64,000 nucleotides of DNA. Origin: Aquilaria yunnanensis. Lineage: Eukaryota; Streptophyta; Magnoliopsida; Malvales; Thymelaeaceae. Below, piece by piece: positions 6,140 through 64,000 of this stretch; position 1 is the first letter of the stretch, and each line of letters starts with the position of its first letter. Under the pieces are notes generated by a model. That model was not told where the DNA came from. It worked only from the letters and a program-made list of their open reading frames with translations, and ran no database searches. The translations under genes and the position numbers were made by a program. The stretch spans positions 17,483,001 to 17,547,000 of the forward strand of contig CM077594.1 of the NCBI GenBank assembly GCA_039654915.1, given 5' to 3'.

Positions 6140-6482
6140 TGTTAAAGTTATTAATTCGTTTTTCCGTGATCAGCTATGTGGGTGTTGGTTTTTTTAACTT
6201 TAGGTTGTTAATGTGGATCGATTCTTTGATTGTGGAGACTTGGAAAGTGGTAGAGTTGGAGAAAATTTTCAAGGGGCGACATTTGTTTCTATGAGATTTG
6301 ATTGACTTTTTAAGTGGGCGACTGCGATATTGCGTCTTATGCAAGTTGGTGTTTGGCCAATTGTCCAAAGGAAAAAATGTCCTTGACTTCTTACCTTATA
6401 GAAACTTGAAGCGTTCGCACTTCATAATTATCAAACACTACCAAATACGTACAAGTTGGTGACCTATTCCTCCATATGTATT
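6140..6482 (-). promoter_or_regulatory. Remaining proximal upstream region of the ATL gene
   Basis: Only 343 bp separate the ATL start codon from the retrotransposon. The sequence that once lay further upstream now starts at 23,224, on the far side of the insertion. No clear TATA box could be assigned. Bases 6478-6482 (GTATT) are one copy of the target duplication. Confidence 0.55.
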
Positions 6483-6989
6483 TGTTGACACCCAATTTCG
6501 TCCGGGTGTTTTAAAATTTTGAAAAAAATTTTATTAAAAAAAATTAATTTTAAAAAAATATATATTACTATTATTATTAAAAAAAATTTAATTAGTTTAA
6601 AATATATATTTTTTTTTTTTGTGAAAATTTGATTTAAAATGATATATGTGTGAATATGTGTATGTTTGAAATAAAATAAAATTTCATGAAAAAAATGACA
6701 AAAAATTAAAAGTTTGAGGTAAAAATGACAAAATTGAGAAGTTTCGGAAAAAATTGACAAATTCTAAAAGTTCCAGGAGCATTTGGTAGTTTGTCACATA
6801 AAATTTCGAGCCTGCCGACGTTTTTGGCTCCAATTGACAGAAAACGACAAAATTGTCAAAATCAGAAGCTTCAGGAACTTATCCAGAGGCTGAGAGACGT
6901 AAAGGACTAAAATTGTCATTTTACCAATTTAAAAGATAAGTTTGAAATTTTTTATTAATTTATCCATCAACAGTTCAGCTAAACTTCCT

Positions 6990-6999
6990 CTATAAATAG
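6990..6999 (+). promoter_or_regulatory. TATA box of the 5' LTR promoter
   Basis: CTATAAATAG, followed by a C-run and a leader, is conserved in all three LTRs (21269-21277 and 56958-56966). The start of the genomic RNA (R) is expected about 30 bases downstream. Confidence 0.75.
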
Positions 7000-7429
7000 C
7001 CCCCCAAATTTTGTGCTGAACACAGAGAAAAATAGAAAGAAAAGCTTAGAGCTCCGTTTTTAAAATAGAAAAAATTACAGCCTTAGTCCCTAGCTCTCCT
7101 TCCTTTCCTCAGAAAATCTCAAAACTTTTCATTTTGACGATTAAGCCATCTTCTTCCCCCCCGCCCTCTGTTTCCATTTCTCAGAATTCAGAATTTAAAA
7201 TCAAGGGTACAACTCTCATTTAATCCTTCATCTTTTCAATTTCTTTCACTTTGGTCACTAACTTTGTATTTTATTCTTGCAGAATTAATTACTAACCCTT
7301 TTAATTTTTACTTGTTTGTTTATTATTTGTTTATTACTAACCCCTTTTTTTATTGTTGTTATTAACTTACTAACAACTAACTTTTAATACTATTATTGTT
7401 ACTAACCTTTTAATTTTTGCATTATTACT

Positions 7430-7795
7430 AACTTTTATAATTGTTGTTAACAATTAATTAACTTTTATTATTGTTGTTAATTAATTAATTTAATTAACTT
7501 GGCTAACTTTTATTATTGTTGTTAATTAATTAATTTAATTAACTTGGCTAGCTTTTTATTATTTTTGTTAATTAATTAATTTAATTAATTTGGCTAACTT
7601 TTTATTTATTGTTGTTAATTAATTTAATTAACTTGGCTAACTTTTTACTGTTGTTAATTAATTAATTTAATTAACTTGGCTAACTTTTTATTATTGTGGT
7701 TAATTAATTAATTTAATTAACTTGACTAACTTTTTATTATTGTTGTTTAACAATTAATTTAATTAACTTTGCTAACATTTATTATTATTATTAAA
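7430..7795 (+). repeat. AT-rich ~48-bp minisatellite in the LTR
   Basis: Six to seven imperfect units built on TTGTTGTTAATTAATTAA and ACTTGGCTAAC. The same array is at 21720-22075 and, with extra units, at 57470-57910, which explains much of the greater length of the third LTR. Confidence 0.85.
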
Positions 7796-8576
7796 GTGGA
7801 TGGCCAAAAAGCCCCACTTTATTATTATTAATTTTTTTCTTTATATAATTTTTTTATTTAATTCACCTTTACCCTTTACTAATTAATAAATAAATGAAAA
7901 TTAAAAGAAGATTATTTTGTAATTAATTATTAAGGCTAATAAAAATTATTTTTAAAAAAGCCAATTATTTTTATTTTTATATACATGTTTTTAATTCTTT
8001 AAAGATAACAAAAAGTTAAAATTAATTTTAATAGTTATTTTTATCCAGTAAAAATAATAAAAAAATAAAAATAAAACCTGTTTAAAAAAATACATGAAAA
8101 TTAAGACTTTATATTTTACTGATTTATTTAAAATATAACTTTTAAATCCACTAAAATAATAAATATTTTTCATTAAACAAGAAAACAAAAAGAAAATTAA
8201 AACAAGATAAGAAAAAGATAAGAAAGATAAGAAAAAGATAATAAAGATAAGAAAGATAAGATAAGATAAGAAAGATAAGAAGGAAAAGAAAGAAAAGAAA
8301 GAAAAATATAGAAAATAAAAATTTTTAGATTATTAATGAATCTAAAAATTCTATAACAAAAAGAATTACGAATTAGTAATTAAACTAATAATTAATTCCA
8401 TAAAAATAAGAATTAAATAATTAACTATAAATTAAATCAACTTACATATCCGGATGATCCGTCAGGATCTGCGGTTTAAAAAAAATATCACCCTTTTAAT
8501 TAAATAAATTAAATAAAAAAAAAGATAAAAATCCATATTTACAATATGGATTAAATTATTTAAAAGTTCACCAAAT

Positions 8577-8668
8577 TCCGTGTCCAAATGACTCGGCAGA
8601 GTCCATGGTTCGGAATCAAAAATCTTCCGTGTCCAAATGACTCGGCAGAGTCCATGGTTCGGAAGTAT
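8577..8668 (+). repeat. Doubled ~46-bp motif in the LTR
   Basis: Two near-identical units of 'CCGTGTCCAAATGACTCGGC' plus 'AGAGTCCATGGTTCGGAA'. Also doubled in the other two LTRs (22860-22950 and 58675-58762). Function unknown. Confidence 0.8.
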
Positions 8669-8941
8669 AAAATTTCATACAAATTAATTAATTTAAAAAT
8701 CCACATTTCGACTAATCCAGTTAAAATTTCTAATTTTGAAAATTAACTGAGAATTATTTAAAAGCAAAGCAAAACAAAATTAAAATCAACTAAGGTGCCA
8801 ATTTTTGGGCGTTTTAACAAAGTTGTTTTAACGTAACCGTACTCCCGATCCCCGAACTCTCGCAGACCAATTTTAAGGTGACCAATCGACCTAAGAAAAC
8901 TGATTGGTGGCGACTCCCGAAAACCCGACGTTGCCACAGCT

Positions 8942-8959
8942 TGGCGACTCCGCTGGGGA
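8942..8959 (+). promoter_or_regulatory. Primer-binding site, fits tRNA-Arg
   Basis: TGGCGACTCCGCTGGGGA, three bases after the LTR. TGG pairs with the tRNA CCA end, and CGACTCC pairs with the GGAGTCG acceptor strand that I recall for plant tRNA-Arg(ACG). A tRNA-Arg primer is reported for Ogre elements. Copy C has the same site with one change (59037-59054). Confidence 0.75.
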
Positions 8960-9914: not shown

Positions 9915-11657
9915 ATGGCAGAACAAGCCGAAGGACGTCTTATAGAGATGGAGTCCAAGATAGAAAGTATGGCAGAACAGATGAGACAATTCATGGAACT
10001 AATCAAGGAGAAAGTAACTCAAGTTCCCATCAAAGAAGCACAAGATCCCACTTATCCTCCGGGATTCACTCCGCAACGAGTCTCAGTCCAAGAAAACCTG
10101 TTTCAGGAATCAGGACAGTCTGCTAGTGTTCACCTGAAACAAGACACTGTGTATGAAGAGAAGAAGACACCACCAAAGGAAGAAGGAGAATCTCAAAAAC
10201 TCGAAACAATAGAGAAGAGACTGCGAGCCATTGAAGGAGGTAATATATTCGGATCTCTCTCAGTGGATGACCTCTGCTTAGTGCCAGACGTCATAATCCC
10301 TACGGACTTTAAAGTACCGGATTTCGTAAAATACGATGGAACGAGTGATCCCATCACTCACATCACACTGTTCCTAAGGAGACTACAACCACTCACAAAA
10401 GATGAAAAGGTGTGGATTGCACTTTTTCAGGAAAGTCTCACAAAATCAGCATTGCAGTGGTATCTAAGTCAAGGACCAAGAAACATCAAAACTTGGAATG
10501 ACCTTGCTCAGGCCTTCATCGGCAACTATAAACATGTTATGGACTTGGCTCCGGATCGCCAAACTCTCCAAAACATGGAGAAGAAAAAGCCAGAAACTTT
10601 CAAGGAATATGCCCAACGGTGGAGGGACTTAGCTGCACAAGTTCAGCCACCCATGACAGAAAAAGAAATGGTTACTTTGTTTGTCCAGACACTGAAATAC
10701 CCATATTATGACAAACTCATCGGCAATTCGGCAACTAATTTCTCCGATGTTGTCATGTCTGGAGAAAGGATCGAGCATGGGATTAGGACTGGGAAGATTG
10801 CTGAGTCCTTTAGTGATCCTATGAAAAGAGGAGGACCATCCAGAACAAAAGATGAAGAAGTACAACAAATAGGACGCGAAAGAGGGATTCCCCTCGTAGG
10901 TACTGTGGCTACCGGTCCTCGCCTATCCTATTCTGCTAAAAGGCCCAATTATTATCCTACCAATAGGCCCAATGACTATCCTCCCAATATGCCCAATGAT
11001 TATCCTTCCAATAGGCCTAATGATTATCCTCCCAATAGGCCCAACAATTATCCTCTCAACAGGCCTAATCAGTTACGGCCACCTGTTCCGACTCCTCCAG
11101 TACCCACACGAAGACCAAAAGAAGTTTTTGCACCAATTCCCATGACTTACACTGAGTTGTATCCAAAACTCATAGAAAGTCAACTTATCCGTCCAATTCC
11201 TACAAATCCATTTGGACCCCCATATCCAACGTGGTATGACCCCAACATAACTTGCCCATATCATGATGGCGTTCCAGGCCATGGCTTGGAAAATTGCACA
11301 GCATTGAAACGTATAGTCCAACAATTAATCGAATCAAAGTGGTTGGACTTTTCCGATGAACCGAACGTCACTCACAATCCATTGCCGCCTTATCAAGAAA
11401 AACCAGTCAATATGATAGAAGAACACCGGCTGATGAAAAAGTCAGTCAATGATATCATAACCCCTCTTAAGCATGTATATTCATGCCTTGTGAAAGAAGG
11501 GATTATCATGGGAAAGCCTTCTTTTGGACATGAAGAAGTTGAAGATGAGGAATGGTGCAACTTTCATGACAGTAAGAGTCATTCTATCCAAGAATGCTCA
11601 GAATTCCGTAAGAATCTGCAAAGACTCATAGACTCATCCCAACTTATCGTTTTATGA
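9915..11657 (+). CDS. gag: Retrotransposon Gag polyprotein (Tat/Ogre-like)
   Basis: 580 residues. An N-terminal heptad-like coiled coil (about 1-37) precedes a Retrotrans_gag-type domain at about 130-260 (LQWYLSQGPRNIKTWNDLAQ and RWRDLAAQVQPP are typical). A repeat zone at about 341-387 is made of seven-residue NRPNDYP units. Two knuckle-like motifs follow: C-x2-H-x5-H-x4-C near 446 and C-x2-H-x4-H-x4-C near 546, each followed by a leucine-rich helix. Gag forms the virus-like particle that packages element RNA. The frame ends in a TGA, and gag-like sequence continues 57 codons in the -1 frame. Start chosen at the first ATG, conserved in copy C. Intact here, so copy A may still supply particle protein in cis. 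Confidence 0.93.
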   Translation: MAEQAEGRLIEMESKIESMAEQMRQFMELIKEKVTQVPIKEAQDPTYPPGFTPQRVSVQENLFQESGQSASVHLKQDTVYEEKKTPPKEEGESQKLETIEKRLRAIEGGNIFGSLSVDDLCLVPDVIIPTDFKVPDFVKYDGTSDPITHITLFLRRLQPLTKDEKVWIALFQESLTKSALQWYLSQGPRNIKTWNDLAQAFIGNYKHVMDLAPDRQTLQNMEKKKPETFKEYAQRWRDLAAQVQPPMTEKEMVTLFVQTLKYPYYDKLIGNSATNFSDVVMSGERIEHGIRTGKIAESFSDPMKRGGPSRTKDEEVQQIGRERGIPLVGTVATGPRLSYSAKRPNYYPTNRPNDYPPNMPNDYPSNRPNDYPPNRPNNYPLNRPNQLRPPVPTPPVPTRRPKEVFAPIPMTYTELYPKLIESQLIRPIPTNPFGPPYPTWYDPNITCPYHDGVPGHGLENCTALKRIVQQLIESKWLDFSDEPNVTHNPLPPYQEKPVNMIEEHRLMKKSVNDIITPLKHVYSCLVKEGIIMGKPSFGHEEVEDEEWCNFHDSKSHSIQECSEFRKNLQRLIDSSQLIVL

Positions 11658-15081: not shown

Positions 15082-15630
15082 ATGGATCCTACTCTTTCTG
15101 TCTTACGAAAATATTTTCCTTCTCTCCCAATGAACATTCTCAAAAAGATCTACCAAGTTCGCTGTGAACGATTAAGAGATCTGATGCACAAAGGAATCCC
15201 TGAAGATGTGCGGTGGTTAATCGAAGCCAAGGTTCGTCTGGCATGTGAAATCCCAGAGGCATTTGTGTCTCACATGCCTGGTATAGGCAAAAGCTCTTAT
15301 ACCAAAAAGCGAAGAGCGAAAAGGTTACAAGTCTGCCATAAATGTGGACGGTGGACTTGTAATACTAAATGTCGTTCTTTAGGGATGATTTCTGATAATC
15401 GAGAAGATAAAATACGATTCATTAAGAATAGCCTGAGTAAGGATTCGTTGGATGATATCCAATTGACTCTTGAGACGCATTCTTGTGGATCTGTGCAACG
15501 TGAACTTCTTGGTTTATGGAGCATTTTTCATGAAGAATGAAACCGTTACAGTCCCGGGAATCTGACTGTAAATGACCCTGTTTGCCAGCTTGTAAGAAAA
15601 CTGGATGGGAAGCAAATCCTCGACTCATAG
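15082..15630 (+). pseudogene. Viral-type cysteine-rich nucleic-acid-binding protein, copy 1, broken by a stop
   Basis: First of three tandem paralogs. The open part (15082-15540) encodes 152 residues; a TGA at 15538-15540 replaces the codon found at the same place in copies 2 and 3. After it, the same frame continues with family sequence (NRYSPGN, NDPVCQLVRKLDG) to a TAG at 15628-15630, giving the same 183-codon span as the other two. The central part is intact: KKRRAKR basic patch and C-x2-C-x4-C-x3-C (CHKCGRWTCNTKC). The truncated product might still bind nucleic acid, since the finger is upstream of the break. No obvious TATA box precedes it, unlike copies 2 and 3. The homology call is explained under copy 2. 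Confidence 0.7.
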
Positions 15631-15791
15631 AAGCCGTTAATGCCGTTATTGGACGTAAAACCAGTGGAAGATGTGAGCCACAGTCACAATTACTGTACAT
15701 ACAGTTTGTTATATTTGGAAAAGTTTGCATTTTCTTTTGACAGATGTACATGCTCTCCTAAGTGTAATCGACACGTTATCCATTTCATCGC

Positions 15792-15798
15792 TATAAAT
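15792..15798 (+). promoter_or_regulatory. Putative TATA box of cysteine-rich gene copy 2
   Basis: TATAAAT in GCTATAAATGC, 81 bases before the ATG at 15879. The spacer before it (15640-15790) shares blocks with the spacers before copy 3 and the LOG gene, such as GTCACAATTACTGTACAT. Confidence 0.6.
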
Positions 15799-15878
15799 GC
15801 ATGTTCTTCCAGTCGGTTATCTAAGTTTCCTTCAATAACTAATTCCTTTCCATCATCTCTCAAATTCTTCTCTCATCA

Positions 15879-16427
15879 ATGGATTCTACTCTTTCTACCC
15901 TGCGAAAATACTTTCCTTCTCTTCCAATAAAAGTCCTTAAAAAGATCTACCTTGCTAGATGTGAAAGAATCAGAGTTTTTATGCACAAAGGCATTCCTGA
16001 TAATGTGCGGTGGCTAATTGAAGCTAAGGTTCGTTCAGCTGGTGAAGTTCCAGAAGCGTTCTTTCCCCGTATGCCCGGCTTTGGTAAAAGCGCTTATGCT
16101 AAAAAGCGAAGAGCAAAGAGGCTAGGTGTCTGTCATAAATGTGGACGATGGAATTGTAATACTAAATGTCGCTTTTTAGGATACATCTCCAGAAATCATG
16201 AAGATAAAAGAAAATTCATCAAGAATGGCCTGCGTAAGGAATCTTTGGATGATATCCTATTAACTTTTGAAACACATTCTTGTGAAATAGTGCAATGGGA
16301 AATTATGGATTTATGGTGGACTTTCCAAAAAGAACAAGATCGTTACAGTCTTGGGAATGTGACTTTAAACGACCCTGTTTGTCAGTTTGTAAGAAAACTG
16401 GATGGGAAGCAAATCCCCGACTTATAG
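15879..16427 (+). CDS. Viral-type cysteine-rich nucleic-acid-binding protein (carlavirus NABP-like), copy 2
   Basis: Intact, 182 residues. The N-terminal half is helical and basic (RKYFPSLPIKVLKKIY; VRWLIEAKVRSAGEVPEAFF). The core near 67-110 has G-x-G-K-S-A-Y-A-K-K-R-R-A-K-R, then a four-cysteine finger C-x2-C-x4-C-x3-C, then FIKNGL. This order (glycine-serine-tyrosine-alanine before an arginine cluster, then CxxC, then F-I-x-x-G) is what I recall for the cysteine-rich nucleic-acid-binding proteins of carlaviruses and related Betaflexiviridae, several of which suppress RNA silencing or act in the nucleus. The second cysteine pair is closer here than in the viral family, and the protein is longer at both ends. 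I infer an endogenised viral gene taken up by the retrotransposon. Alternative: an unrelated plant zinc-binding protein with a convergent motif. Confidence 0.65.
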   Translation: MDSTLSTLRKYFPSLPIKVLKKIYLARCERIRVFMHKGIPDNVRWLIEAKVRSAGEVPEAFFPRMPGFGKSAYAKKRRAKRLGVCHKCGRWNCNTKCRFLGYISRNHEDKRKFIKNGLRKESLDDILLTFETHSCEIVQWEIMDLWWTFQKEQDRYSLGNVTLNDPVCQFVRKLDGKQIPDL

Positions 16428-16577
16428 AAGGCATTGAAGCCATTACTGGACATAAATCAGTGGAAGATGAGAGCCACGGTCATGATTCCTGTACATATAA
16501 GCTGTCATTTGTCTTTTCTTTTGACAATAATGTACTTGCTTCTGTAAGTGTAATTAACGCATTATCCCTTTCATCAC

Positions 16578-16585
16578 TATAAATA
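16578..16585 (+). promoter_or_regulatory. Putative TATA box of cysteine-rich gene copy 3
   Basis: TATAAATA, 59 bases before the ATG at 16644, in a position equivalent to the TATA box of copy 2. Confidence 0.6.
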
Positions 16586-16643
16586 TGTGTTAGTTATTTT
16601 CGTTTCCTACAATCACTAATTTCTTTCTTTGCCTCCTTCATCA

Positions 16644-17192
16644 ATGGAGTCTTCTCTTTCCGCCTTACGAAAGTATTTTCCTTCCTTCCCAATAAATGTT
16701 CTTAAAAAGATTTATCAAGCTAGATGTGAACGATTCAGAGTATTTATGCACAAAGGCATCCCTGATAATGTGCGGTGGCTAATTGAAGCTAAGGTTCGTT
16801 CAGCTGGTGAGGTTCCCGAAGCGTTCTTTCCCCGTATGCCCGGCTTTGGTAAAAGCGCTTATGCCAAAAAAAGAAGAGCAAAGAGGCTAGGCGTTTGTCA
16901 TAATTGTGGATGGTGGATTTGCGGCAATAAATGTCGTTCTCCAGGAGTGATCACCAGAAATCGTAATGATAGAATAAAATTCATCAAGAATGGCTTGCGT
17001 AAGGAATCTCTGGAAGATATTCGAGAGGTTCTTGAAGCGCATTCTTGCGGAATAGTGCAATTTGAGGTTGTTGGATTATGGATAATTTTCCAAAAAGAAC
17101 GAGATCGTTATAGTCTTGGGAATCTGACTTTAAACGACCCAGTTTGCCAGTTTGTGAGAAAACTGGATGGGATGCAAATCACCGATTCATAG
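16644..17192 (+). CDS. Viral-type cysteine-rich nucleic-acid-binding protein, copy 3
   Basis: Intact, 182 residues, the same length as copy 2 when started at 16644 (MESSLSAL); an in-frame ATG at 16629 would add five residues but has no counterpart in copy 2. Residues ~31-83 are nearly identical to copy 2 even at silent sites (about 16744-16905), while the finger and C-terminus differ (CHNCGWWICGNKC). That mosaic suggests local gene conversion or a recent duplication with selection on the finger. The finger loop has tryptophans in place of GRW, and the charged segment after it (RNRNDRIKFIKNGL) is kept. All cysteines and the arginine cluster are present, so the product could be functional. Confidence 0.65.
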   Translation: MESSLSALRKYFPSFPINVLKKIYQARCERFRVFMHKGIPDNVRWLIEAKVRSAGEVPEAFFPRMPGFGKSAYAKKRRAKRLGVCHNCGWWICGNKCRSPGVITRNRNDRIKFIKNGLRKESLEDIREVLEAHSCGIVQFEVVGLWIIFQKERDRYSLGNLTLNDPVCQFVRKLDGMQITDS

Positions 17193-17240
17193 AAAGTATT
17201 GAAGCCATTACTGGACGCAAAGCCAGTGAAAGACGAGGAT
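17193..17240 (+). other. Short spacer after cysteine-rich gene copy 3
   Basis: Carries the 'GAAGCCATTACTGGACG' block also found after copies 1 and 2, which marks the repeat boundary of the triplicated gene unit (about 750-800 bp each). Confidence 0.55.
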
Positions 17241-17640
17241 CAAAGTCACGATTACTGTACGTGCTAGCTGTCGCTTTTGGAAATTTTCCTCCCCTTTTGG
17301 TAATAATGTATCCACTCCTGACGTGAACCAAAGTCACGATTACTGTACGTGCTAGCTGTCGCTTTTGAAATCTTCCTCCCCTTTCGGCGATAATGTATCC
17401 ACTCCTGACATGAGCCATAGTCACGATACTGTACATGCTAGCTGCCACTTTTTAAAATTTTCCTTCTCTTCCAACAATCACGTACCTACTCCTGACGTAA
17501 GCTACAGTAGTGACTACTGTACATACTAGCAGCTATTTTGAAAATTTTCCTCCTCTTTTAACGATAGTGTACCCATACCTGACCAGAGTCATACTCGTGA
17601 CTACTGTGAATAGCTGGCAATAATGTATCCATTCTTGAAA
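17241..17640 (+). promoter_or_regulatory. Array of ~86-bp repeats upstream of the LOG gene, possible enhancer
   Basis: Units start near 17241, 17329, 17416, 17502 and 17584 (88, 87, 86, 82 bp and a partial one). Each has 'AAGTCACGATTACTGTACGT' or a variant, then GCTAGCTG, a pyrimidine block and CACTCCTGACGT. TGACG is the core of as-1/ocs-type bZIP sites found in several plant viral and T-DNA promoters; units 1 and 3 keep TGACGT, unit 2 has TGACAT. The same segment occurs once before cysteine-rich genes 2 and 3, so it was amplified only before the LOG gene. A promoter role is inferred. Confidence 0.55.
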
Positions 17641-17669
17641 ATAAAATTATTGCCTTATCTCTTCATCTC

Positions 17670-17680
17670 TATAAATATAT
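17670..17680 (+). promoter_or_regulatory. Putative TATA box of the LOG-type gene
   Basis: TATAAATATAT, 30 bases before the ATG at 17710. A start about 30 bases downstream would leave a leader of only some ten bases. It lies inside the longer open frame that begins at 17623, which argues for 17710 as the true start. Confidence 0.6.
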
Positions 17681-17709
17681 CCTCTTTTCTCACAAGGGTA
17701 AGGATAGGA

Positions 17710-18339
17710 ATGGAGAAAAGCCCAACTCGTAAATCCCGAAGTATTTGTGTATTTTCTGGGGCTTTTCCTGGAAAAGATGAAGAGTATTTAAAAGCAGCCA
17801 ACCATTTGGGTAGAGTATTAGCTGAGCGAAAAATACATTTAGTTTATGGAGGAGGTAGTGTCGGATTAATGGGAGGTGTAGCATCAGCAGCATCTCTAGG
17901 AGGAAGTCAAGTTTTGGGCATTATCCCTGGACCTCTGAAATTTATTTCTGGGGGCACGATTGGAGAAGAATTAGTGATTAAAAATTTGCAAGAGCGTGTG
18001 TTACAAATGCTTTTAAATGCTGATGCTTTTATCGCTCTACCAGGTGGTTTTGGCACATTGGGAGAAGTCTTTCAAATTGCTTCCATGACCCAACTTAATT
18101 TGCATAAGAAACCCATTGGGCTTTTAAATGTTAACAATTTCTTTACAGGTCTGATAGCTTTTATGGATTATGCTATGCAGAAGAATTTCATATCAAGAGT
18201 GGCACGGCGAATCATAATATCCGCAACAACTGCTGAAGAATTGCTAGATAAAATACAAGCTTTTGTTCCTGAACCAGATCCAGCAATGATTCAGATAGAC
18301 TGGACACGACAGTCTTTCCCGACCAGTTCACTCCCATAA
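17710..18339 (+). CDS. LOG-type cytokinin riboside 5'-monophosphate phosphoribohydrolase
   Basis: Intact, intronless, 209 residues, close to the usual LOG length (~200-220). Rossmann-like start SICVFSGAFPG (11-21), nucleotide-binding YGGGSVGLMGGV (46-57), and signature PGGFGTLGE (111-119) with catalytic E119; R96 matches the catalytic arginine of the M-x2-R-K motif, whose lysine is V97 here. LOG enzymes release the free cytokinin base and ribose 5-phosphate from cytokinin nucleotides in the cytosol. The segment LALHKKPIGLLN-like (130-140) and the ARRIIISATTAEEL-like end are also family features. Plant LOG genes have introns, so an intronless copy inside a retroelement suggests capture through RNA, or from a prokaryote or virus. 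It is the last gene before the 3' repeats, in the same direction as gag, with its own TATA box. Confidence 0.9.
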   Translation: MEKSPTRKSRSICVFSGAFPGKDEEYLKAANHLGRVLAERKIHLVYGGGSVGLMGGVASAASLGGSQVLGIIPGPLKFISGGTIGEELVIKNLQERVLQMLLNADAFIALPGGFGTLGEVFQIASMTQLNLHKKPIGLLNVNNFFTGLIAFMDYAMQKNFISRVARRIIISATTAEELLDKIQAFVPEPDPAMIQIDWTRQSFPTSSLP

Positions 18340-18884: not shown

Positions 18885-19920
18885 AAATCAATTTTCATCA
18901 TCGGGGTTTTAAGGATCGAACCTTTGCCTCGAAAACAATCAATTTTCATCATCGGGGTTTTAAGGATGAGACCTTTGCCTCGAAAACAATCAATTTTCAT
19001 CGTCGGGATTTTAAGGATGGAACCTTTGTCTCGAAAACAATCAACGGTAGGACTGCTCCTAGCGTCGGGGTTTTAAGGATGGAACCTTTGCCTCGAAAAC
19101 AATCAATTTTCATCGTCGGGATTTTAAGGATGGAACCTTTGTCTCGAAAACAATCAACGGTAGGACTGCTCCTAGCGTCGGGGTTTTAAGGATGGAACCT
19201 TTGCCTCGAAAACAATCAATTTTCATCGTCGGGATTTTAAGGATGAAACCTTTGTCTCGAAAACAATCAACGGTAGGACTGCTCCTAGCATCAGGGTTTT
19301 AAGGATGGAACCTTTGCCTCGAAAACAATCAATTTTCATCATCAAGGTTTTAAGGATGGAACCTTTGCCTCGAAAACAATCAATTTTCATCATCGGGGTT
19401 TTAAGGATGGAACCTTTGCCTCGAAAACAATCAATTTTCATCATCGGGGTTTTAAGGATGGAACCTTTGCCTCGAAAACAATCAATTTTCATCATCGGGG
19501 TTTTAAGGATGGAACCTTTGCCTCGAAAATAATCAATTTTCATCATCAGGGTTTTAAGGATGGAACCTTTGCCTCGAAAATAATCAATTTTCATCATCGG
19601 GGTTTTAAGGATGGAACCTTTGCCTCGAAAACAATCAATTTTCATCATCGGGGTTTTAAGGATGGAACCTTTGCCTCGAAAACAATCAATTTTCATCGGG
19701 GTTGTAAGGATGGAACATTTGCCTCGAAAATAATCAATTTTCATCATCAGGGTTTTAAGGATGGAACCTTTGCCTTGAAAAGAATCAATTTTCATCATCG
19801 GGGTTTTAAGGATGGAACCTTTGCCTCGAAAACAATCAATTTTCATCATCGGGGTTTTAAGGATGGAACCTTTGCCTCGAAAATAATCAATTTTCATCAT
19901 CAAGGTTTTAAGGATGGAAC
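18885..19920 (+). repeat. 51-bp tandem repeat array
   Basis: About 20 units of a 51-bp motif around 'GGGGTTTTAAGGATGGAACC' and TTTGCCTCGAAAACAATCAA. Some early units are 62 bp and carry an insert with a short stem, GGTAGGACTGCTCCTAGC. Because 51 is a multiple of three, a long minus-strand frame of 17-residue repeats results (19223-19903); it is not a gene. Arrays just before the 3' LTR are a known trait of Tat-lineage elements and a source of satellites. Confidence 0.92.
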
Positions 19921-20403
19921 CTTTGCCTCGAGATCAATCAATCAATCCGAGGTTTTAAGGATAGAACCTTTGCCTCGAGATCAATCAATCAATCCGGGGT
20001 TTTAAGGATGGAACCTTTGCCTCGAGATCAATTATCAATCCGAGGTTTTAAGGATGGAACCTTTGCCTCGACATCAATCAATCAATTCGAGGTTTTAAGG
20101 ATGGAACCTTTGCCTCGAGATCAATCAATCAATCCGAGGTTTTAAGGATAGAACCTTTGCCTCGAGATCAATCAATCAATCCGGGGTTTTAAGGACGGAA
20201 CCTTTGCCTCGAGATCAATCAATCAATCCGAGGTTTTAAGGATAGAACCTTTGCCTCGAGATCAATCAATCAATCCGGGGTTTTAAGGATGGAACCTTTG
20301 CCTCGAGATCAATTATCAATCCGAGGTTTTAAGGATGGAACCTTTGCCTCGAGATCAATCAATCAATCCGAGGTTTTAAGGATGGAACCTTTGCCTCGAA
20401 AAC
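19921..20403 (+). repeat. 47-bp tandem repeat array (variant of the 51-bp unit)
   Basis: About ten units sharing GGTTTTAAGGATGGAACCTT with the previous array, but with the linker GAGATCAATCAATCAATCCG in place of AAAACAATCAATTTTCATCA. Confidence 0.9.
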
Positions 20404-20655
20404 AAATAATCAATCAATCAGTCCATCTTACAACGATAGGAGCTTTCCTATCGTTAGAGGTTCTAAGGACATTTCCTTAACCTAAAACAAACAATCAATC
20501 CATCAGTCCATCTTACAACGATAGGAGCTTTCCTATCGTTAGAGGTTCTAAGGACCTTTCCTTAACCTCAAACAAATAATCAATCAATCAGTCCATCTTA
20601 CAACAATAGGAGCTTTCCTATCGTTAGAGGTTTTAAGGACCTTTCCTTAAACCTT
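20404..20655 (+). repeat. ~84-bp tandem repeat with a hairpin, 3 units
   Basis: Each unit holds AACGATAGGA-GCTT-TCCTATCGTT, a perfect 10-bp stem with a 4-base loop (the third unit has one stem mismatch), followed by GAGGTTCTAAGGAC and CTTTCCTTAACCT. It is related to the insert in the 62-bp units of the first array. It may fold in element RNA; a role is not known. Confidence 0.85.
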
Positions 20656-20747: not shown

Positions 20748-20758
20748 AAAGGGGGGCA
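20748..20758 (+). promoter_or_regulatory. Polypurine tract
   Basis: AAAGGGGGGCAGC runs straight into the 3' LTR start at 20761, the expected place for plus-strand priming. The same LTR start is seen in all copies. Confidence 0.85.
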
Positions 20759-20760
20759 GC

Positions 20761-23223
20761 TGTTGACACCCAATTTCGTCCGGGTGTTTTAAAATTTTGA
20801 AAAAAATTTTATTAAAAAAAATTAATTTTAAAAAAAAATATATTACTATTATTATTAAAAAAAATTTAATTAGTTTAAAATATATATTTTTTTTTTTTGT
20901 GAAAATTTGATTTAAAATGATATATGTGTGAATATGTGTATGTTTGAAATAAAATAAAATTTCATGAAAAAAATGACAAAAAATTAAAAGTTTGAGGTAA
21001 AAATGACAAAATTGAGAAGTTTCGGAAAAAATTGACAAATTCTAAAAGTTCCAGGAGCATTTGGTAGTTTGTCACATAAAATTTCGAGCCTGCCGACGTT
21101 TTTGGCTCCAATTGACAGAAAACGACAAAATTGTCAAAATCAGAAGCTTCAGGAACTTATCCAGAGGCTGAGAGACGTAAAGGACTAAAATTGTCATTTT
21201 ACCAATTTAAAAGATAAGTTTGAAATTTTTTATTAATTTATCCATCAACAGTTCAGCTAAACTTCCTCTATAAATAGCCCCCCAAATTTTGTGCTGAACA
21301 CAGAGAAAAATAGAAAGAAAAGCTTAGAGCTCCGTTTTTAAAATAGAAAAAATTACAGCCTTAGTCCCTAGCTCTCCTTCCTTTCCTCAGAAAATCTCAA
21401 AACTTTTCATTTTGACGATTAAGCCATCTTCTTCCCCCCCCCCCCGCGCCCTCTGTTTCCATTTCTCAGAATTCAGAATTTAAAATCAAGGGTACAACTC
21501 TCATTTAATCCTTCATCTTTTCAATTTCTTTCACTTTGGTCACTAACTTTGTATTTTATTCTTGCAGAATTAATTACTAACCCTTTTAATTTTTACTTGT
21601 TTGTTTATTATTTGTTTATTACTAACCCCTTTTTTTATTGTTGTTATTAACTTACTAACAACTAACTTTTAATACTATTATTGTTACTAACCTTTTAATT
21701 TTTGCATTATTACTAACTTTTATAATTGTTGTTAACAATTAATTAACTTTTATTATTGTTGTTAATTAATTAATTTAATTAACTTGGCTAACTTTTATTA
21801 TTGTTGTTAATTAATTAATTTAATTAACTTGGCTAGCTTTTTATTATTTTTGTTAATTAATTAATTTAATTAATTTGGCTAACTTTTTATTTATTGTTGT
21901 TAATTAATTTAATTAACTTGGCTAACTTTTTACTGTTGTTAATTAATTAATTTAATTAACTTGGCTAACTTTTTATTATTGTGGTTAATTAATTAATTTA
22001 ATTAACTTGACTAACTTTTTATTATTGTTGTTTAACAATTAATTTAATTAACTTTGCTAACACTTATTATTATTTTTAAAGTGGATGGCCAAAAAGCCCC
22101 ACTTTATTATTATTAATTTTTTTCTTTATATAATTTTTTTATTTAATTCACCTTTACCCTTTACTAATTAATAAATAAATGAAAATTAAAAGAAGATTAT
22201 TTTGTAATTAATTATTAAGGCTAATAAAAATTATTTTTAAAAAAGCCAATTATTTTTATTTTTATATACATGTTTTTAATTCTTTAAAGATAACAAAAAG
22301 TTAAAATTAATTTTAATAGTTATTTTTATCCAGTAAAAATAATAAAAAAATAAAAATAAAACCTGTTTAAAAAAATACATGAAAATTAAGACTTTATATT
22401 TTACTGATTTATTTAAAATATAACTTTTAAATCCACTAAAATAATAAATATTTTTCATTAAACAAGAAAACAAAAAGAAAATTAAAACAAGATAAGAAAA
22501 AGATAAGAAAGATAAGAAAAAGATAATAAAGATAAGAAAGATAAGATAAGATAAGAAAGATAAGAAGGAAAAGAAAGAAAAGAAAGAAAAATATAGAAAA
22601 TAAAAATTTTTAGATTATTAATGAATCTAAAAATTCTATAACAAAAAGAATTACGAATTAGTAATTAAACTAATAATTAATTCCATAAAAATAAGAATTA
22701 AATAATTAACTATAAATTAAATCAACTTACATATCCGGATGATCCGTCAGGATCTGCGGTTTAAAAAAAATATCACCCTTTTAATTAAATAAATTAAATA
22801 AAAAAAAAGATAAAAATCCATATTTACAATATGGATTAAATTATTTAAAAGTTCACCAAATTCCGTGTCCAAATGACTCGGCAGAGTCCATGGTTCGGAA
22901 TCAAAAATCTTCCGTGTCCAAATGACTCGGCAGAGTCCATGGTTCGGAAGTATAAAATTTCATACAAATTAATTAATTTAAAAATCCACATTTCGACTAA
23001 TCCAGTTAAAATTTCTAATTTTGAAAATTAACTGAGAATTATTTAAAAGCAAAGCAAAACAAAATTAAAATCAACTAAGGTGCCAATTTTTGGGCGTTTT
23101 AACAAAGTTGTTTTAACGTAACCGTACTCCCGATCCCCGAACTCTCGCAGACCAATTTTAAGGTGACCAATCGACCTAAGAAAACTGATTGGTGGCGACT
23201 CCCGAAAACCCGACGTTGCCACA
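20761..23223 (+). repeat. 3' LTR of copy A
   Basis: 2,463 bp, nearly identical to the 5' LTR. Differences seen include a longer C-run near 21437 (with CGCG), small changes in the A-run near 20830 and a few bases near 22065. It ends TTGCCACA at 23223 and is followed by the target duplication GTATT. Confidence 0.95.
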
Positions 23224-23228
23224 GTATT

Positions 23229-56463: not shown

Positions 56464-56468
56464 TATTT

Positions 56469-59033
56469 TGTTGACACCCAATTTCGTCCGACCATAAAAA
56501 ATTTTAAAAGAAATTAAATAAAAAAAAATTATTATTTTTATTATTATTATTATTACTAAAAATTTTAATTAGTTTAAAATACATTTTTTTTTTGTTTTTG
56601 TGAAGATTTGATTTAAAATGATATATGTGTGTATTTGAAAGAAAAAAGAAAACTCCAAAAAAATGGCAAAATTTAAAAGTTTGAGGTAAAAATGACAACA
56701 TTAAGAAGTTTCGGAAAAAATTGACAAATTCTGAAAGTTCCAGGAGCATTTGGTAGTTTGTCACATAAAATTTTGGGTCTGCCGACGTTTCTGGCGCAAA
56801 TTGACAGAAAACGACAAAATTGTCAAAATCAGAAGCTTCAGGAACTTATCCAGAGGCTGAGAGACGTAAAGGACTAAAATTGTCATTTTACCAATTTAAA
56901 AGATAAGTTTGAAATTTTTTATTAATTTATCCATCAACAGTTCAGCCAAACTTCCTCTATAAATAGCCCCCCCAAATTTTGTGCTGAACACAGAAAAAAA
57001 TAGAGGAAAAGCTTAGAGCTCCGTTTTAGAAAAAGAAAAAATTACAGCTAAAAGTCCCTGGCTCTCTTCCCTTTTCCCAGAAAAGCCTAAAACTTCAATC
57101 TATTTACATAAACACCATCTTCTTCCTCTTGCTGCCAATTTTTTTTCCCATCCCCGGTCGCCGTTTCCAGTTTTTTTTTTTTTTTTTTTTCACGTTTTTC
57201 GTCCCAGGAAATTCAAAAATTTTAACTTTCAGGTAAAACTCATCTTTAATCCTTCATCTTTTCAATTTCTTTCACTTTGGTCACTAACTTTGTATTTTAT
57301 TCTTGCAGAATTAATTACTAACCCTTTTAATTTTTACTTGTTTGTTTATTATTTGTTTATTACTAACCCCTTTTTTTTATTGTTGTTATTAACTTACTAA
57401 CAACTAACTTTTAATACTATTATTGTTACTAACCTTTTAATTTTTGCATTATTACTAACTTTTATAATTGTTGTTAACAATTAATTAACTTTTATTATTG
57501 TTGTTAATTAATTAATTTAATTAACTTGGCTAACTTTTATTATTGTTGTTAATTAATTAATTTAATTAACTTGGCTAGCTTTTTATTATTGTTGTTAATC
57601 AATTAATTTAATTAATTTGGCTAACTTTTTATTATTGTTGATAATTAATTAATTTAATTAACTTGGCTAACTTTTTATTATTGTTGTTAATTAATTAATT
57701 TAATTAATTTGGCTAACTTTTATTATTGTTGTTAATTAATTAATTTAATTAACTTGGCTAACTTTTTACTGTTGTTAATTAATTAATTTAATTAACTTGG
57801 CTAACTTTTTATTATTGTTGTTAATTAATTAATTTAATTAACTTGACTAACTTTTTATTATTGTTGTTTAACAATTAATTTAATTAACTTTGCTAACATT
57901 TATTATTATTTTTAAAGTGGATGGCCAAAAAGCCCCACTTTATTATTTTTAATTTTTTTGATTTATATAATTTTTTATTTAATTCACCTTTACCCTTTAC
58001 TAATTAATAAATAAATGAAAATTAAAAGAAGATTATTTTGTAATTAATTATTAAGGCTAATAAAAATTATTTTTAAAAAAAGCCAATTATTTTTATTTTT
58101 ATATACATGTTTTTAATTCTTTAAAGATAACAAAAAGTTAAAATTAATTTTAATAGTTATTTTTATCCAGTAAAAATAATAAAAAAATAAAAATAAAACC
58201 TGTTTAAAAAAAATACATGAAAATTAAGACTTTATATTTTACTGATTTATTTAAAATATAACTTTTAAATCCACTAAAATAATAAATATTTTTCATTAAA
58301 CAAGAAAACAAAAAGAAAACTAAAACAAGATAAGAAAAAGATAAGAAAGACAAGAAAAAGAAAAGAAAAGAAAGATAAGAAAGAAAGAAAAGAAAGAAAG
58401 AAAAGAAAGAAAAGAAAAAGAAAAGAAAAGAAAAGAAAGAAAAGAAAGGAAAAATAAAACTAAAAGAAAGATAAAATCAAAAAGAAAGATAAAGAAAGAA
58501 GGAAAAGAATAATAAAATATAAAAAGAAATAAGAAAGATCTTTTAAAGATCATTAACAAAAAATCTAAAATTTTAAAAGACTTACAAAAATAGTAATTAA
58601 AATAACAATTACTTCCATTAAAATAAAAAATCCATATTTACAATATGGATTAAATTGTTTAAATTTCACCAAATTTCGTGTCCAAATGACTCGGCAGAGT
58701 CCATGGTTCGGAATAAAAATCTTCCGTGTCCAAATGACTCGGCAGAGTCCATGGTTCGGAAGTATAAAATTCTATATAAATTAATTACCAAAAATCCACA
58801 TCCAATTAATTCAGTTAAAAATTCTAGATTGAAAATTAACTGAAATTTATTTAAAAGCAAAGCGAAACAAAATTAAAATCAACTAAGGTGCCAATTTTTG
58901 GGCGTTTTAACAAAGTTGTTTTAACGTAACCGTATTCCCGAACCACCGAACTCTCGCAGACCAATATTTAAGGTGACCAATCGACCTAGGTAAACAGATT
59001 GGTGGCGACTCCCGAAAATCCGACGTTGCCACA
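56469..59033 (+). repeat. 5' LTR of copy C
   Basis: 2,565 bp, TGTTGACACCC...GTTGCCACA. More AT-rich minisatellite units than copy A, an expanded GAAA/GATAA purine tract (58320-58540) and a small deletion where copy A has the 8320-8520 segment. TATA box at 56958-56966. Confidence 0.93.
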
Positions 59034-59036
59034 GCT

Positions 59037-59054
59037 TGGCGACTCCACTGGGGA
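59037..59054 (+). promoter_or_regulatory. Primer-binding site of copy C
   Basis: TGGCGACTCCACTGGGGA; one base differs from copy A (G to A at position 11). Confidence 0.75.
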
Positions 59055-59769
59055 GTCCACGTTAGTGAGTCGAGTCTAAAGTTGATTTGTTTTGATTTAC
59101 TTTGCTTATTATGTGGATTTATATGTTATATTTACTTATTCTAAACATGCATAATGCATTCACAATATGAAGCTCTATACCCGAGCTTCCTTAAATCAAA
59201 CGCGATTCTTTCTAAGCGGAATTGGTGTTGCTGTCCTTGTGAGGCCACGGTCTCCAAGCCTTCACCGGTTTCAAAGTAGCAAAGTAGTGTATTGCCTTCT
59301 GAGACGGTTAGTCTCTGCATGGGCCCACGAAAAGCTACGACTCGAATTAATCCATTCCTTACATTAACCCTAGAGGGTAAGGAATCGGGTCGTCACTATG
59401 ATTTAGTGACGGGATTCGGGAACTATCCCTTGCCTTTTTGATAAGCTACCTTATGCATATAGAACTCCCCACTTAACCATAGAACTGACCATAGAATTTC
59501 TACCATTTTACCAACGCCATAAGCACGTCCTTGTTATGCTATCTTGTTGCTCTACACTTTTATTTTCTTCGTGTCTTATATTTATGGTTTTAATTCATTT
59601 TTCCATAATACTTCATGAGTTGTTAATTGCTATTTAACTTATTAATAACCTTATCTTTCTTGTGCAATTATTCTTCATGCATCAAAACCACGCATCAAAT
59701 TATGCTAACTTTTTGGTCTTTATAATGACAACTAAAAGTTTTGAAGTTCTACGATAATGGATAAGCAAA

Positions 59770-60150
59770 CTCACTCATTGCATGCATTCCATTACATTAA
59801 TCACGTGCATATAAAGTATGATAAAAATAATCTCATTGCATGCATTCCATTACATCAATCACACGCATATAAAATCTGATAAAAATAATCTCATTGCATG
59901 CATTCCATTACATTAATCACATGCATATAAAATCTGATAAAAATAATCTCATTGCATGCATTCCATTACATTAATCACGTGCATATAAAGTCTGATAAAA
60001 ACATAATCTCATTGCATACATCCATTACATTAATCACGTGCATATAAAGTCTGATAAAAACATAATCTCATTGCATACATCCATTACATTAATCACGTGT
60101 ATACAAAGTCTGATAAAAACATAATCTCATTTTTCCTACATGCATCCATT
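59770..60150 (+). repeat. ~58-bp tandem repeat in the leader, 6-7 units
   Basis: Units contain 'CTCATTGCATGCATTCCATT' and ACATTAATCACGTGCATATA. Copy A has only about three, so the array expanded or contracted after the copies split. Confidence 0.85.
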
Positions 60151-60253
60151 GCATCAATCACATACACATAGGATCTAATAAAATATACCTTACTTTTAAA
60201 AGGATAAAATTGGACCTCGACACCGATATTCAACTCGGCTCCAAATAAGATTA

Positions 60254-61150
60254 ATGGCAGAACAAATCGAAGGACGTCTCATAAAGATAGAGTCCAAGAT
60301 AGAAAGTATGGCCGAACAAATGAGACAATTGATCGAGCTAATCAAGGCGAAAGCAATTCAAGAAGCACAAGTTCAGCCACCCATGACAGAAAGAGAAATG
60401 GTCACTTTGTTTGTCCAGACACTGAAGTACCTATATTATGACGAACTCATTGGCAATTCGGCAACTAATTTTTCTAACATTGTCATGTCTGGAGAAAGAA
60501 TCGAGCATGAGATTAGGACTGGGAATATTGCTGAATCCTTTAATAATCCTATGAAAAGAGGAGGACCATCCAGAAGAAAAGATGACGAAGTACAACAAAT
60601 AGGATGCGGAAGAAGGATTCCCCTCGTGGATACTGTGGCTATCGGACCTCGCCTATCCTATTTTGCCAATGGGCCCGATAATTACCTTCCAAATAGGCCC
60701 AATGATTATCCTCTGAATAGGCCCAATAATTATCCTCCAAATAGGCCCAATGATTATCCTTCCAATAGGCCCAACAATTATCCTTTTAACAGACCTAATC
60801 AGTCATGGCCACCTGCTCCTACTCCTCCAGTACCTGCACCAAGACCAAGAGAAGTTTTCACACCAATTTCCATAACTTATACCGAGTTATACCCAAAACT
60901 CATCGAAAGACAATTTATCCGTCCAATTCCTACAAAGCCATTCAAACCCCCATATCCAAGGTGGTATGACCCTAACATTACCTGCCCATATCATGATGGC
61001 GTTCCAGGCCATGGCTTGGAAAACTGCATGGCATTGAAGCGTATAGTTCAACAATTAATCGAGTCAAAGTGGTTGGACTTTTCCGATGAGCCAAATGTCA
61101 CCCACAATCCATTGCCGCCTCATCAAGCAAAACCAAGTCCAAGTTGCTAG
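60254..61150 (+). pseudogene. gag: Gag of copy C, internally deleted
   Basis: 298 residues against 580. An in-frame 597-bp deletion removes the residues corresponding to about 44-242 of copy A, that is, most of the Retrotrans_gag domain; the junction lies in the 7-bp word GCACAAG, present at 10038-10044 and 10635-10641 of copy A. A second deletion (about 370 bp) removes the C-terminal knuckle and ends the frame at KPSPSC. NRPNDYP repeats and the first C-x2-H knuckle remain. The frame stays open but cannot make a normal Gag, so this copy would need particles from elsewhere. Confidence 0.85.
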
Positions 61151-62470
61151 GCCCGATGTGATTGATAATTGAAAAGTGAAGATTTCGAGCTAGAATTACA
61201 TTGACTTTGGAAGGCCTCCAAGTCAGATCTGACCTAACAGTTCGCACACATTTTTGAATGACAAGGAATCCTTTGAATAAACTTGTATCTTTGATAGCTT
61301 GCCAAAGTAATCTAATAGTAAAAATCTCCTAGATTTAGTCCAGAATCTAGGGTGTAGTCTTTGTTAAATGGGCACCTGGTATTCTTTTTCTTGGTACAAC
61401 AAAAAGATGTAATGTGTGCATTCTACCACTTTTTACTAAAATTTCATTTTTACATCCACATATTCTACCACTTTCTACCAAAAATTTTATTTTTCTTACA
61501 TCTATCTCTCACTCTTTGCCATTATACTATCCATTATTACCATCACACTTTACTTTGTAAACAATACTACTCGTGGGTGAAAATAAAAGTTAAGGGAGAT
61601 TTGATAGTAATGATCTTCAAAGTGCTACCAAATCTAGTAAGAAGGATTCTAAATGTTGCACCTCAACCCTCAAAAGGAATTCACAGTGGTTATCAACATC
61701 CTTGCAAGAAGTTTGGGGTTAGTTTCCAAACAAGGTAGCTCTCATATTAAATGACTTCAGTGGCTTCCCAATTCTCATAAATGCTCAAAAAAAAAAAAAG
61801 GTTCTCAGTTTTCCGCAACACAAACTCCGAAAAGAAAAAGTTCATCCCTTCCATCAAAAAGCCAACAAGGGAAAATTCAAAACCAAAAAAAAAAAGAGAC
61901 TGAGAGCAAATACAAGCAAGTAAGGCCACTTGAATCATCTCATTTCAAGAAGACTATGATCTCGGTTCTCTGTAACAAAAACTCCGAAAAGGAAAAAGTT
62001 CATCCCTTCCATCAAAAAGCCAACAAGGGAAAATTCAAAACCAAAAAGAACTGAGAACAAGCACGAGCAAGCAAGGCCACTTGAGTCATCTCACTTCAAG
62101 AAAGTTATCAAATATGTCATCACCATAGCTCACAAAAAAAAAAAGGAACAAAAAAAATATATAAAGAAAAACAAAACAAAAAAAAAAAAAAACAAAACAA
62201 AAAAAAAAGAAAGGGAAACAAAAACAAAAACAAAAAAAAGAGAAAGGAAAAAAAGGGCTCAAACTAGAGCAAAAGAAAAAAGATAGAAAAAGTGAGCTAT
62301 GTATTCTAGACTGAAAACCTGCAAAGGCGGTTTAGAAAACAAAAGTAACCCTCAAACCAAGTGTACATAAAGATTACGATAGTTGGGGGGCAACAGATGA
62401 GATCAAACTTTCTGGAAAAGAGTGGCAAGTTTGAGGTCATCACTATTGAGTTTTTCATCATAATCAAATT
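61151..62470 (+). other. Non-coding stretch after gag in copy C
   Basis: Collinear with 11780-13009 of copy A, with A-rich repeats at 61780-62110 and longer poly(A) tracts (62125-62240). Confidence 0.65.
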
Positions 62471-62790
62471 TGCTCACGAGTAGTATTAAAAGACCATTCT
62501 TCCACACCACTTAAACTTAACTTTCCTCAGACCTAACATCCTCGTTCAGTCAAAAGACTATCATTGTGAATCATGTTTCTACCTTATTTAATACTGCTCA
62601 CGAGTAGTATTAAAAGACCCTTCTTTCACACCACTGAAACTTAACTTTACTCAGACCTAATGTTTACCTCTTAATATTATTCTCATTCAGCTAAAAGACT
62701 GCAAAAAAAAAAAAACATTTAAACTTAATTTCCCTCACACCTAACATTTACCTCTCGATATCATCCTCATTCAGCTAAAAGGCTATCCTT
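62471..62790 (+). repeat. ~124-bp tandem repeat in copy C, 2.5 units
   Basis: GCTCACGAGTAGTATTAAAA units at 62472 and 62597, then a partial unit; copy A has one more. Confidence 0.8.
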
Positions 62791-62982
62791 GTGAATCATG
62801 TTTATACCTTATTGCCTTGCACAGTTTATGTCTTCGAATTGGAAAGGGAAGAATGGCAGGACATTTTAATTGAAAACAAAGACCGTAAATTACTTTGTCA
62901 AGCTTTGCAAATTGATGAAAGTTTTTCTTTAAGGCCAAACCATTATTCATTAATGTGTGTAGACTTAAAAGTGAGGAGATAG
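62791..62982 (+). CDS. 63-residue frame of unknown function, copy C ortholog
   Basis: Same frame as 13455-13646, same start, stop and length, with three replaced residues. Not recognised as a known domain. See that entry for the argument for and against coding. Confidence 0.4.
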   Translation: MNHVYTLLPCTVYVFELEREEWQDILIENKDRKLLCQALQIDESFSLRPNHYSLMCVDLKVRR

Positions 62983-63778
62983 CTTGAGTCTTTCTTTAAT
63001 AAGATGTGGTTCTTGTAAGAGAAATTTACGATCAAGTGCCATCACAAAGGTCTAGAAATGCTCGACCTTCTGTTAAATTAAAGGCGAGATGATATCTCTT
63101 TCCACATAAACACCATATTCAGGGGGGCAAAGTAGTCTCTACGAAGCGTAAGAGGAGTACTGCCAACAAAGAAGTTCAATAGACAAGGGGGCAAGTCTTA
63201 TGGATCAAAACATGAGTTCAAGGAAGAGCAATCATTCAGATTATAACATGGGAATAAGTAAGTGTCGGCACGGTCACAAGAAAAGGGGCAAAGCAGACAT
63301 TGAAAGTAAAGCCTTTGATGGTATCAAATCCATGACAATGGATGAATACCCGAAAGAGATATAAATTATGAGACAGGCCAACTTTAAAGAAATTGAGGCC
63401 AAAATTCAAAGAACAAGTCAAAGAAAGAGGATTTTGAAAAGAGTTGGGCTTTTGAGGCAGCGAACAAAAGCTGAAAAGCATAAAGAGATTCAATGATAGT
63501 CCAAGAAGGCCATCACAAAAGAGGATCCAGTAAAACAAAGACATAAAGAATTAGATCCATACAAAAAAAAAAAGCCATTAGTTACACATGCTCTGCATTC
63601 ATGCATTTCATATCATGCATACATAGCCTTTACATAACAAGGACCAAACGGGAAGCACATCCACGGCACAGCTACAACAATATAAGCTGAGATCTCAATG
63701 TCATCAGCTCTTACCAATCTATCACTGGATACACAGCTAATATGCGGGACCAACCCGCATCAGGAATTCAAGAATAAA
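62983..63778 (+). other. Non-coding stretch of copy C
   Basis: Collinear with 13647-14436 of copy A; includes small indels that break any shared frame. Confidence 0.5.
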
Positions 63779-64000
63779 GTAGACAATATTGTCAAAAGCT
63801 TGGCTACCGATTCAATAATCGAGGCTACACCTGGAAGGATCGGATTGACGCCAGCTAGTAGTATCCAAGATAAGAGATAGCTATAGCCAAGGATAAGGCA
63901 GATATAAAAAAAAAATATAAAGTAGACAATATTGTCAAAAGCCTGGCAATTGATTCAATAATCGAGGCTACACCTGGAAGGACAGGATTGATGCCAGCTT
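63779..64000 (+). repeat. Start of the ~143-bp tandem repeat in copy C
   Basis: One full unit and part of another, matching 14437-14800 of copy A with one unit fewer before the window ends. Confidence 0.8.

Follow-up and report, generated by a model that had tools for sequence, protein, structure and literature searches.

A LOG-type frame with a changed base pocket in a young plant LTR retrotransposon: a candidate inherited accessory gene

The window, the whole 64-kb stretch of DNA that was analysed, contains a frame for a LOG-type protein inside a mobile element, which raises the question of what a relative of cytokinin-releasing enzymes is doing there. The initial annotation proposed that the element makes active cytokinin. 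Judged from sequence comparisons, we lean, with a little better than even confidence, towards a different answer: the frame would be an accessory gene that plant Ty3/gypsy elements have inherited, with a re-tuned pocket, and not a recent host capture. Most likely, the accessory cassette to which it belongs is old and acts on the host, and its LOG protein drifted from cytokinin release toward another nucleotide task.

The carrier element and its accessory cassette

A young LTR retrotransposon of 16.7 kb spans positions 6483-23223 of the window, complete with paired TG...CA LTRs, a target-site duplication, a primer-binding site, a polypurine tract and gag. The features of this element, and of a second copy, are given below.

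6478..6482, no strand: target-site duplication GTATT, 5' copy (LTR flanks read directly)
6483..8938, plus strand: 5' LTR, TG...CA, 2456 bp (99.59% identity to the 3' LTR)
8942..8959, plus strand: primer-binding site TGGCGACTCCGCTGGGGA (assigned by position, no tRNA matched)
9915..11657, plus strand: gag, 580 aa (PF03732, E 5.5e-12)
15082..15540, plus strand: carlavirus-type nucleic-acid-binding ORF 1, 152 aa (Viral_NABP 7.1e-07, Carla_C4 1.1e-05)
15784..15798, plus strand: TATA module TTCATCGCTATAAAT upstream of ORF 2
15879..16427, plus strand: carlavirus-type nucleic-acid-binding ORF 2, 182 aa (Carla_C4 3.7e-06, Viral_NABP 3.8e-06)
16570..16584, plus strand: TATA module upstream of ORF 3
16644..17192, plus strand: carlavirus-type nucleic-acid-binding ORF 3, 182 aa (Viral_NABP 3.8e-06, Carla_C4 0.00022)
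17241..17607, plus strand: 87-bp repeat, about four copies, between ORF 3 and LOG
17662..17676, plus strand: TATA module upstream of LOG
17710..18339, plus strand: LOG-type ORF, 209 aa (Pfam, AtLOG3 match, AlphaFold model, family alignment)
18886..20650, plus strand: tandem-repeat tail, a 51-bp unit in about 30 copies, then an 85-bp unit in 3 copies
20748..20760, plus strand: polypurine tract AAAGGGGGGCAGC (assigned by position)
20761..23223, plus strand: 3' LTR, 2463 bp (paired with the 5' LTR)
23224..23228, no strand: target-site duplication GTATT, 3' copy (LTR flanks read directly)
56467..64000, plus strand: second element copy of this type, diverged (the window ends before its cargo region)

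The description of the carrier as a young LTR element was borne out. The two LTRs differ by 3 mismatches and 1 gap opening across 2464 columns, and because they are near-identical this copy must have moved recently. Plant LTR dating uses a substitution rate of 1.3e-8 per site and year, and at this rate the LTR divergence would place the insertion some tens of thousands of years ago. With the LTR boundary set one base further out, the duplication reads TATT instead of GTATT. Pfam identified no pol domain in any of the nine frames of at least 65 aa between gag and ORF 1, where the room is only 3.4 kb, or in six further frames elsewhere inside the element, which would probably depend on pol from a related element. 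Its affinity with Gypsy appears to rest on the type of its gag, which we take to be Ty3/gypsy, and on an integrase found beside a carlavirus-type ORF in another locus (L026, below).

The second copy matches positions 6481-14657 in ordered blocks of 85-96% identity, and its TGTTGACACC begins at 56469. Its gag (60200-61255) is missing residues 37-240 and has stops near the gag end. The repeat tail between LOG and the 3' LTR contains long open frames on both strands, none with a Pfam match above cut-off; an antisense frame there gave weak Pfam matches, every one below cut-off, and was set aside. Elsewhere in the window, a RING-H2 finger frame lies on the minus strand at 5561-6169, and the element was inserted about 0.3 kb upstream of it. 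Two adjacent minus-strand frames at 52172-53631 jointly cover a Transferase domain (PF02458) and are split between 52738 and 52777, by either an intron or a break in the gene. ARAGORN predicted a tRNA-Ile (TAT) at 39513-39586.

The earlier placement of the LOG frame, after gag and before the 3' LTR and reading the same way as the element, stands, but the frame does not directly follow gag: three carlavirus-type zinc-finger ORFs intervene, and the LOG-like ORF closes the cassette. All three of these ORFs score above the curated cut-offs of both families, PF01623 and PF05515. The homology of ORF 1 continues past an in-frame stop to 15624, and the structure model of ORF 2 was poor (pLDDT 65.9, pTM 0.35). 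A protein search with a carlavirus-type ORF gave 159 matches with E values of 1 or less; wherever a species is named for the 120 matches listed, it is a plant. A search for a viral source yielded no relatives of these ORFs in viral_contigs, and none of ORF 2 in plasmids.

The carlavirus-type ORFs are under purifying selection in the element. Each of the six pairwise comparisons of ORFs 1-3 and the L026 homologue gave a dN/dS ratio within 0.215-0.269, with dS values that reach 1.02 and are then near saturation. With the YN00 estimator, the ratios of the three in-window pairs were about 0.13-0.24, and six off-frame controls on three of the carlavirus-type pairs gave 0.75-1.70.

The 15-bp module TTCATCNCTATAAAT is found in three copies in the 64 kb versus 0.09 expected, and none of 100 shuffles reached three, odds that are flattering because the pattern was chosen after the sequences were seen. 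It precedes ORF 2, ORF 3 and LOG and is absent upstream of ORF 1. The copies before ORF 2 and ORF 3 are not independent, because the stretches around them repeat each other. From such modules the cassette genes may be transcribed as units with their own promoters.

A related arrangement was identified in L026 (1-3330), which has an integrase ORF (rve E 2.3e-16, H2C2 E 1.2e-12), presumably of Gypsy type by its motif, with a carlavirus-type ORF about 200 bp behind it. Thus, in another element the carlavirus-type ORFs sit behind pol, where env-like ORFs are also found. L026 is filed as a Candidatus Nomurabacteria MAG and is probably plant DNA that was binned wrongly. The pairing with LOG is not universal, since no LOG was identified in the 983 bp behind the carlavirus-type ORF of L026. 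Elsewhere, the LOG and the carlavirus-type matches, compared by eye, both include contigs of 8723, 4511 and 2128 bp with a common source, and this equality of length is only suggestive of co-location. Little can be read from other size coincidences, such as 905, 1018, 1386 and 1514 bp and a single Xanthoceras chromosome.

The LOG-type protein, its pocket and its tail

The initial annotation reported an intact 209-residue LOG-type frame with the PGGFGTLGE signature and the catalytic Arg and Glu equivalents, and each of these features was recovered. The ORF is uninterrupted. An upstream ATG at 17623 in the same frame would extend the protein to 238 aa; the start at 17710 was preferred because it is supported by the family alignment. 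The window protein matched Pfam Lysine_decarbox (LOG, PF03641) with an E value of 4.9e-30 and 104.8 bits, for a cut-off of 27, and AtLOG3 (2a33) with an E value of 4.1e-51. Its AlphaFold model (pLDDT 85.8) adopts the LOG fold, with chain 2a33_B as the best Foldseek match (E 1.3e-21, rmsd 1.5). Identity to the ten LOG3-like rows of the alignment is 41-44%.

The residues that would hold the substrate were compared with those of CgLOG. Excerpts of the CgLOG study propose Arg99 and Glu122 as the catalytic pair, name Met96, Lys100 and Glu121 as adenine contacts and infer a prenyl site made of Met96, His97, Lys100, Glu125 and Trp129, a site that they describe as the same in AtLOG3, OsLOG and CpLOG (PMC4979012). 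In the window protein, Arg96 and Glu119 occupy the catalytic positions, and none of the six canonical pocket residues (Met, His, Lys, Glu, Glu and Trp) is kept. The counts below refer to the best 120 of 7823 matches to the window protein, with the residue of the window protein in brackets.

Cg Met96 site (L93): Met 91, Ile 27
Cg His97 site (Q94): His 60
Cg Lys100 site (V97): Met/Ile/Leu 115, Lys 4
Cg Glu121 site (G118): Glu 114
Cg Glu125 site (Q122): Gln/His 110, Glu 5
Cg Trp129 site (M126): Trp 116

Among these 120 matches, the catalytic Arg is present in 116 and the Glu in 118 (both in 114), and PGGxGTxxE in 111. The pocket residues are kept to very different degrees: none in 1 match, one in 1, two in 18, three in 56, four in 39, five in 1 and all six in 4 (P0002, P0003, P0071 and P0079). 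The host comparison set, the best 120 matches to AtLOG3, which do not cover the whole range of plant LOG subfamilies, showed neither the Lys nor the Glu replacement (Cg100, Cg125) in any of its 120 proteins, and all six residues were kept in 120 of 120. From the site counts, these two pocket changes are characteristic of almost all of the clade, and further ones were added in the window lineage.

A second difference concerns the C-terminus. An LxLxL sequence no more than three residues from the end was found in 99 of the 120 clade matches listed versus 0 of 120 LOG3-like proteins, none of which has LxLxL anywhere in its last 30 residues, although some of these LOG3-like ends may be artificial and not natural LOG ends, because 22 of the 120 proteins exceed 240 aa. 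In each of the 99 tails, two or more of the six residues preceding LxLxL are Lys/Arg, for example KRKLDLTLRL. The LxLxL pattern is that of the EAR co-repressor motif, and motifs this short turn up easily. The window protein and its best match P0001 both lack it. In most relatives, the tail may tie the LOG-like protein to the TOPLESS co-repressor.

Origin of the frame and competing explanations

P0001 is 90% identical to the window protein over 89% of the query and comes from an 894-bp contig, and the other 119 of the best 120 of 7823 matches are 48-63% identical. A tree of 41 rows split the window protein and 25 chosen matches from 12 LOG3-like plant proteins, AtLOG8 and two bacterial LOGs with a support of 100/96, and with three more rows the clade comprised 29 rows at 99/98. 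Named members come from Reevesia, Diplodiscus, Populus, Parasponia and Orobanche. The clade is spread over several orders and is multicopy in at least one plant, Reevesia pubescens, which contributes at least 34 of the 120 matches listed under 16 different chromosome tags (counted by eye). With such relatives elsewhere, the LOG frame is not a one-off. Members were called TE-type by sequence and not from LTRs around each of them, and the others would also reside in elements. A one-off capture of a host LOG mRNA by the element, which the single uninterrupted frame would suit, is contradicted by both trees and by the low identity to LOG3-like rows, and we regard it as extremely improbable. A close origin from phage or viral LOGs was rejected as well, because a scan of viral_contigs with the LOG alignment gave 25 loci of only 26-33% identity and no close relatives of the window protein.

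Within the clade, the canonical pocket is seen in three rows from Xanthoceras, which are tailless, and in P0079, which bears the tail. In P0077 and the rest the pocket is changed. As the tree is rooted, the tail would be older than the pocket change, since the rows with all six residues branch first and only P0079 among them is tailed. This order depends on the root: the outgroup is a pair of bacterial rows on long branches, whose joining drew a warning from the program. In the Citrus gene model P0234, a carlavirus-type part stands in one protein with a shortened LOG part whose end is LxLxL; PGGxGTxxE is missing from the LOG part, and none of the Pfam scores reaches its curated cut-off. Confidence in the inherited accessory gene is restrained because P0234 lacks this catalytic stretch and because the tree root is weak.

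Two further explanations concern what the window copy does at present. If it were a working LOG, the element would raise active cytokinin in the host cell, and this would agree with the retained catalytic pair and phosphate loop, the fold like that of AtLOG3 and the intact frame. However, the loss of all six adenine/prenyl pocket residues speaks against it, as do excerpts of the CgLOG study in which substituting alanine for AMP-binding and catalytic residues left almost no activity, except in S19A (PMC4979012), with the reservation that alanine is not among the residues seen here and that the prenyl site was itself inferred. On the sequence, the claim that the element makes active cytokinin is doubtful: the catalytic pair is kept and the residues said to hold the substrate are replaced. 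We consider a working LOG unlikely. Alternatively, the copy may be a decaying passenger, intact by chance, unselected and carried by a non-autonomous element, to which we assign a lesser but appreciable chance, below even and above that of the working LOG. Such decay would account for the absent tail, for E118G and W126M at otherwise nearly invariant sites, for the interruption of ORF 1, for the long stem (0.66-0.72 changes per column) that the window protein has in common with P0001 and for the fact that only P0001 among the 120 matches listed also keeps 0 of 6 pocket residues. Yet P0001 agrees with the window protein at five of the six pocket sites and is itself open over 204 aa, with a different end, which argues that the lineage kept a frame, and the LTRs show that this copy moved recently. 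Neutral sequences at such divergence also seldom stay open: in a simulation at 58.7% mean amino acid identity, 0.7% of 1500 runs were stop-free, and 0 of 1500 were stop-free and kept the 29 invariant residues. Because these residues were drawn from an alignment that includes the window protein, the simulation supports selection over the history of the clade and not on the present copy, which may be partly decayed.

Proposed role and comparison with known systems

The inherited accessory gene, the preferred reading, would have the following history and function. The LxLxL tail and then the changed base pocket would have arisen in the clade, on the tree as rooted, while the catalytic Arg/Glu pair stayed. 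The LOG-like protein would still bind, and probably cleave, a nucleoside 5'-monophosphate with a changed base preference. It is probably not simply hormone-making, because the part that holds the cytokinin has changed. The window copy would be a fast-evolving offshoot, and direct cytokinin release by it is unlikely because the tail is absent and more of the pocket has changed. The cassette products may manipulate the host, and the cassette would thereby benefit the element. A more specific proposal, which we put forward as speculation with a rather small chance of being right, is a two-part host-control module. In this module, a virus-type nucleic-acid-binding protein would act with a LOG turned nuclear, TOPLESS-recruiting, nucleotide-binding or -cleaving effector, and the pair would damp hormone or nucleotide-based immune signalling (for example by TIR-made nucleotides) where the element moves; the window lineage would be a derivative in which the tail was lost and more of the pocket was altered.

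These results matter for several reasons. The extra genes of plant LTR retrotransposons are mostly without assigned function, and here a clade of a hormone-pathway enzyme family has specific pocket and C-terminus changes and, in this element, is found beside virus-type genes under purifying selection. Small soluble proteins make an effect of plant retrotransposons on their hosts testable. Also, LOG-like annotations in plant genomes may belong to this clade, for example the poplar 'LOGL10' (P0075).

The LOG cargo itself is not new. It had been held to be undescribed in plant retrotransposons, and this did not survive the literature, as the consulted text of PMC9289625 already reports, for LTR retrotransposons, a YgdH/LOG domain in the consensuses of two Citrus species and, with a filter off, of poplar, which agrees with Steinbauerova 2011 as cited there. 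No description of the carlavirus-type partner, the tail or the pocket change was found among titles and the starts of abstracts, a scope mostly outside subscription papers, and the same titles and abstract starts gave no carlavirus-type proteins joined with plant retrotransposons. The main text of PMC7264820 has neither YgdH nor cytokinin, that of PMC11963269 has neither YgdH nor LONELY, and TOPLESS together with LTR led only to a review on apomixis. A large survey, according to excerpts of PMC6317226, took account of extra ORFs only from 250 codons upward, a threshold at which frames of 182 and 209 codons would be missed.

Compared with AtLOG3 and AtLOG8, the window protein has the same fold, PGGxGTxxE and the catalytic Arg and Glu. 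Its clade differs from both in forming a separate branch, in the replacement of the pocket Lys and Glu in most members and in the LxLxL tail of most matches listed. Like the carlavirus-type cysteine-rich proteins, the ORFs of the element have a basic KKRRAK followed by a Cys-rich part; unlike them, ORFs 2 and 3 have 182 aa and a conserved C-terminal part, and they lie in a retrotransposon. AlkB domains, another enzyme cargo of mobile elements, also occur in some plant viruses. The YgdH elements of Citrus and Populus likewise have a LOG-type domain inside Gypsy-type elements, and the consulted text of PMC9289625 gives its presence only, with no mention of a carlavirus-type partner, a tail, a pocket change or a carrier without pol. 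The same source, in its consulted text, describes orchid Gypsy elements that carry an ORF for an AlkB m6A demethylase active in vitro (PMC9289625). These are likewise large Gypsy elements with an extra enzyme ORF, with another enzyme and in other plants.
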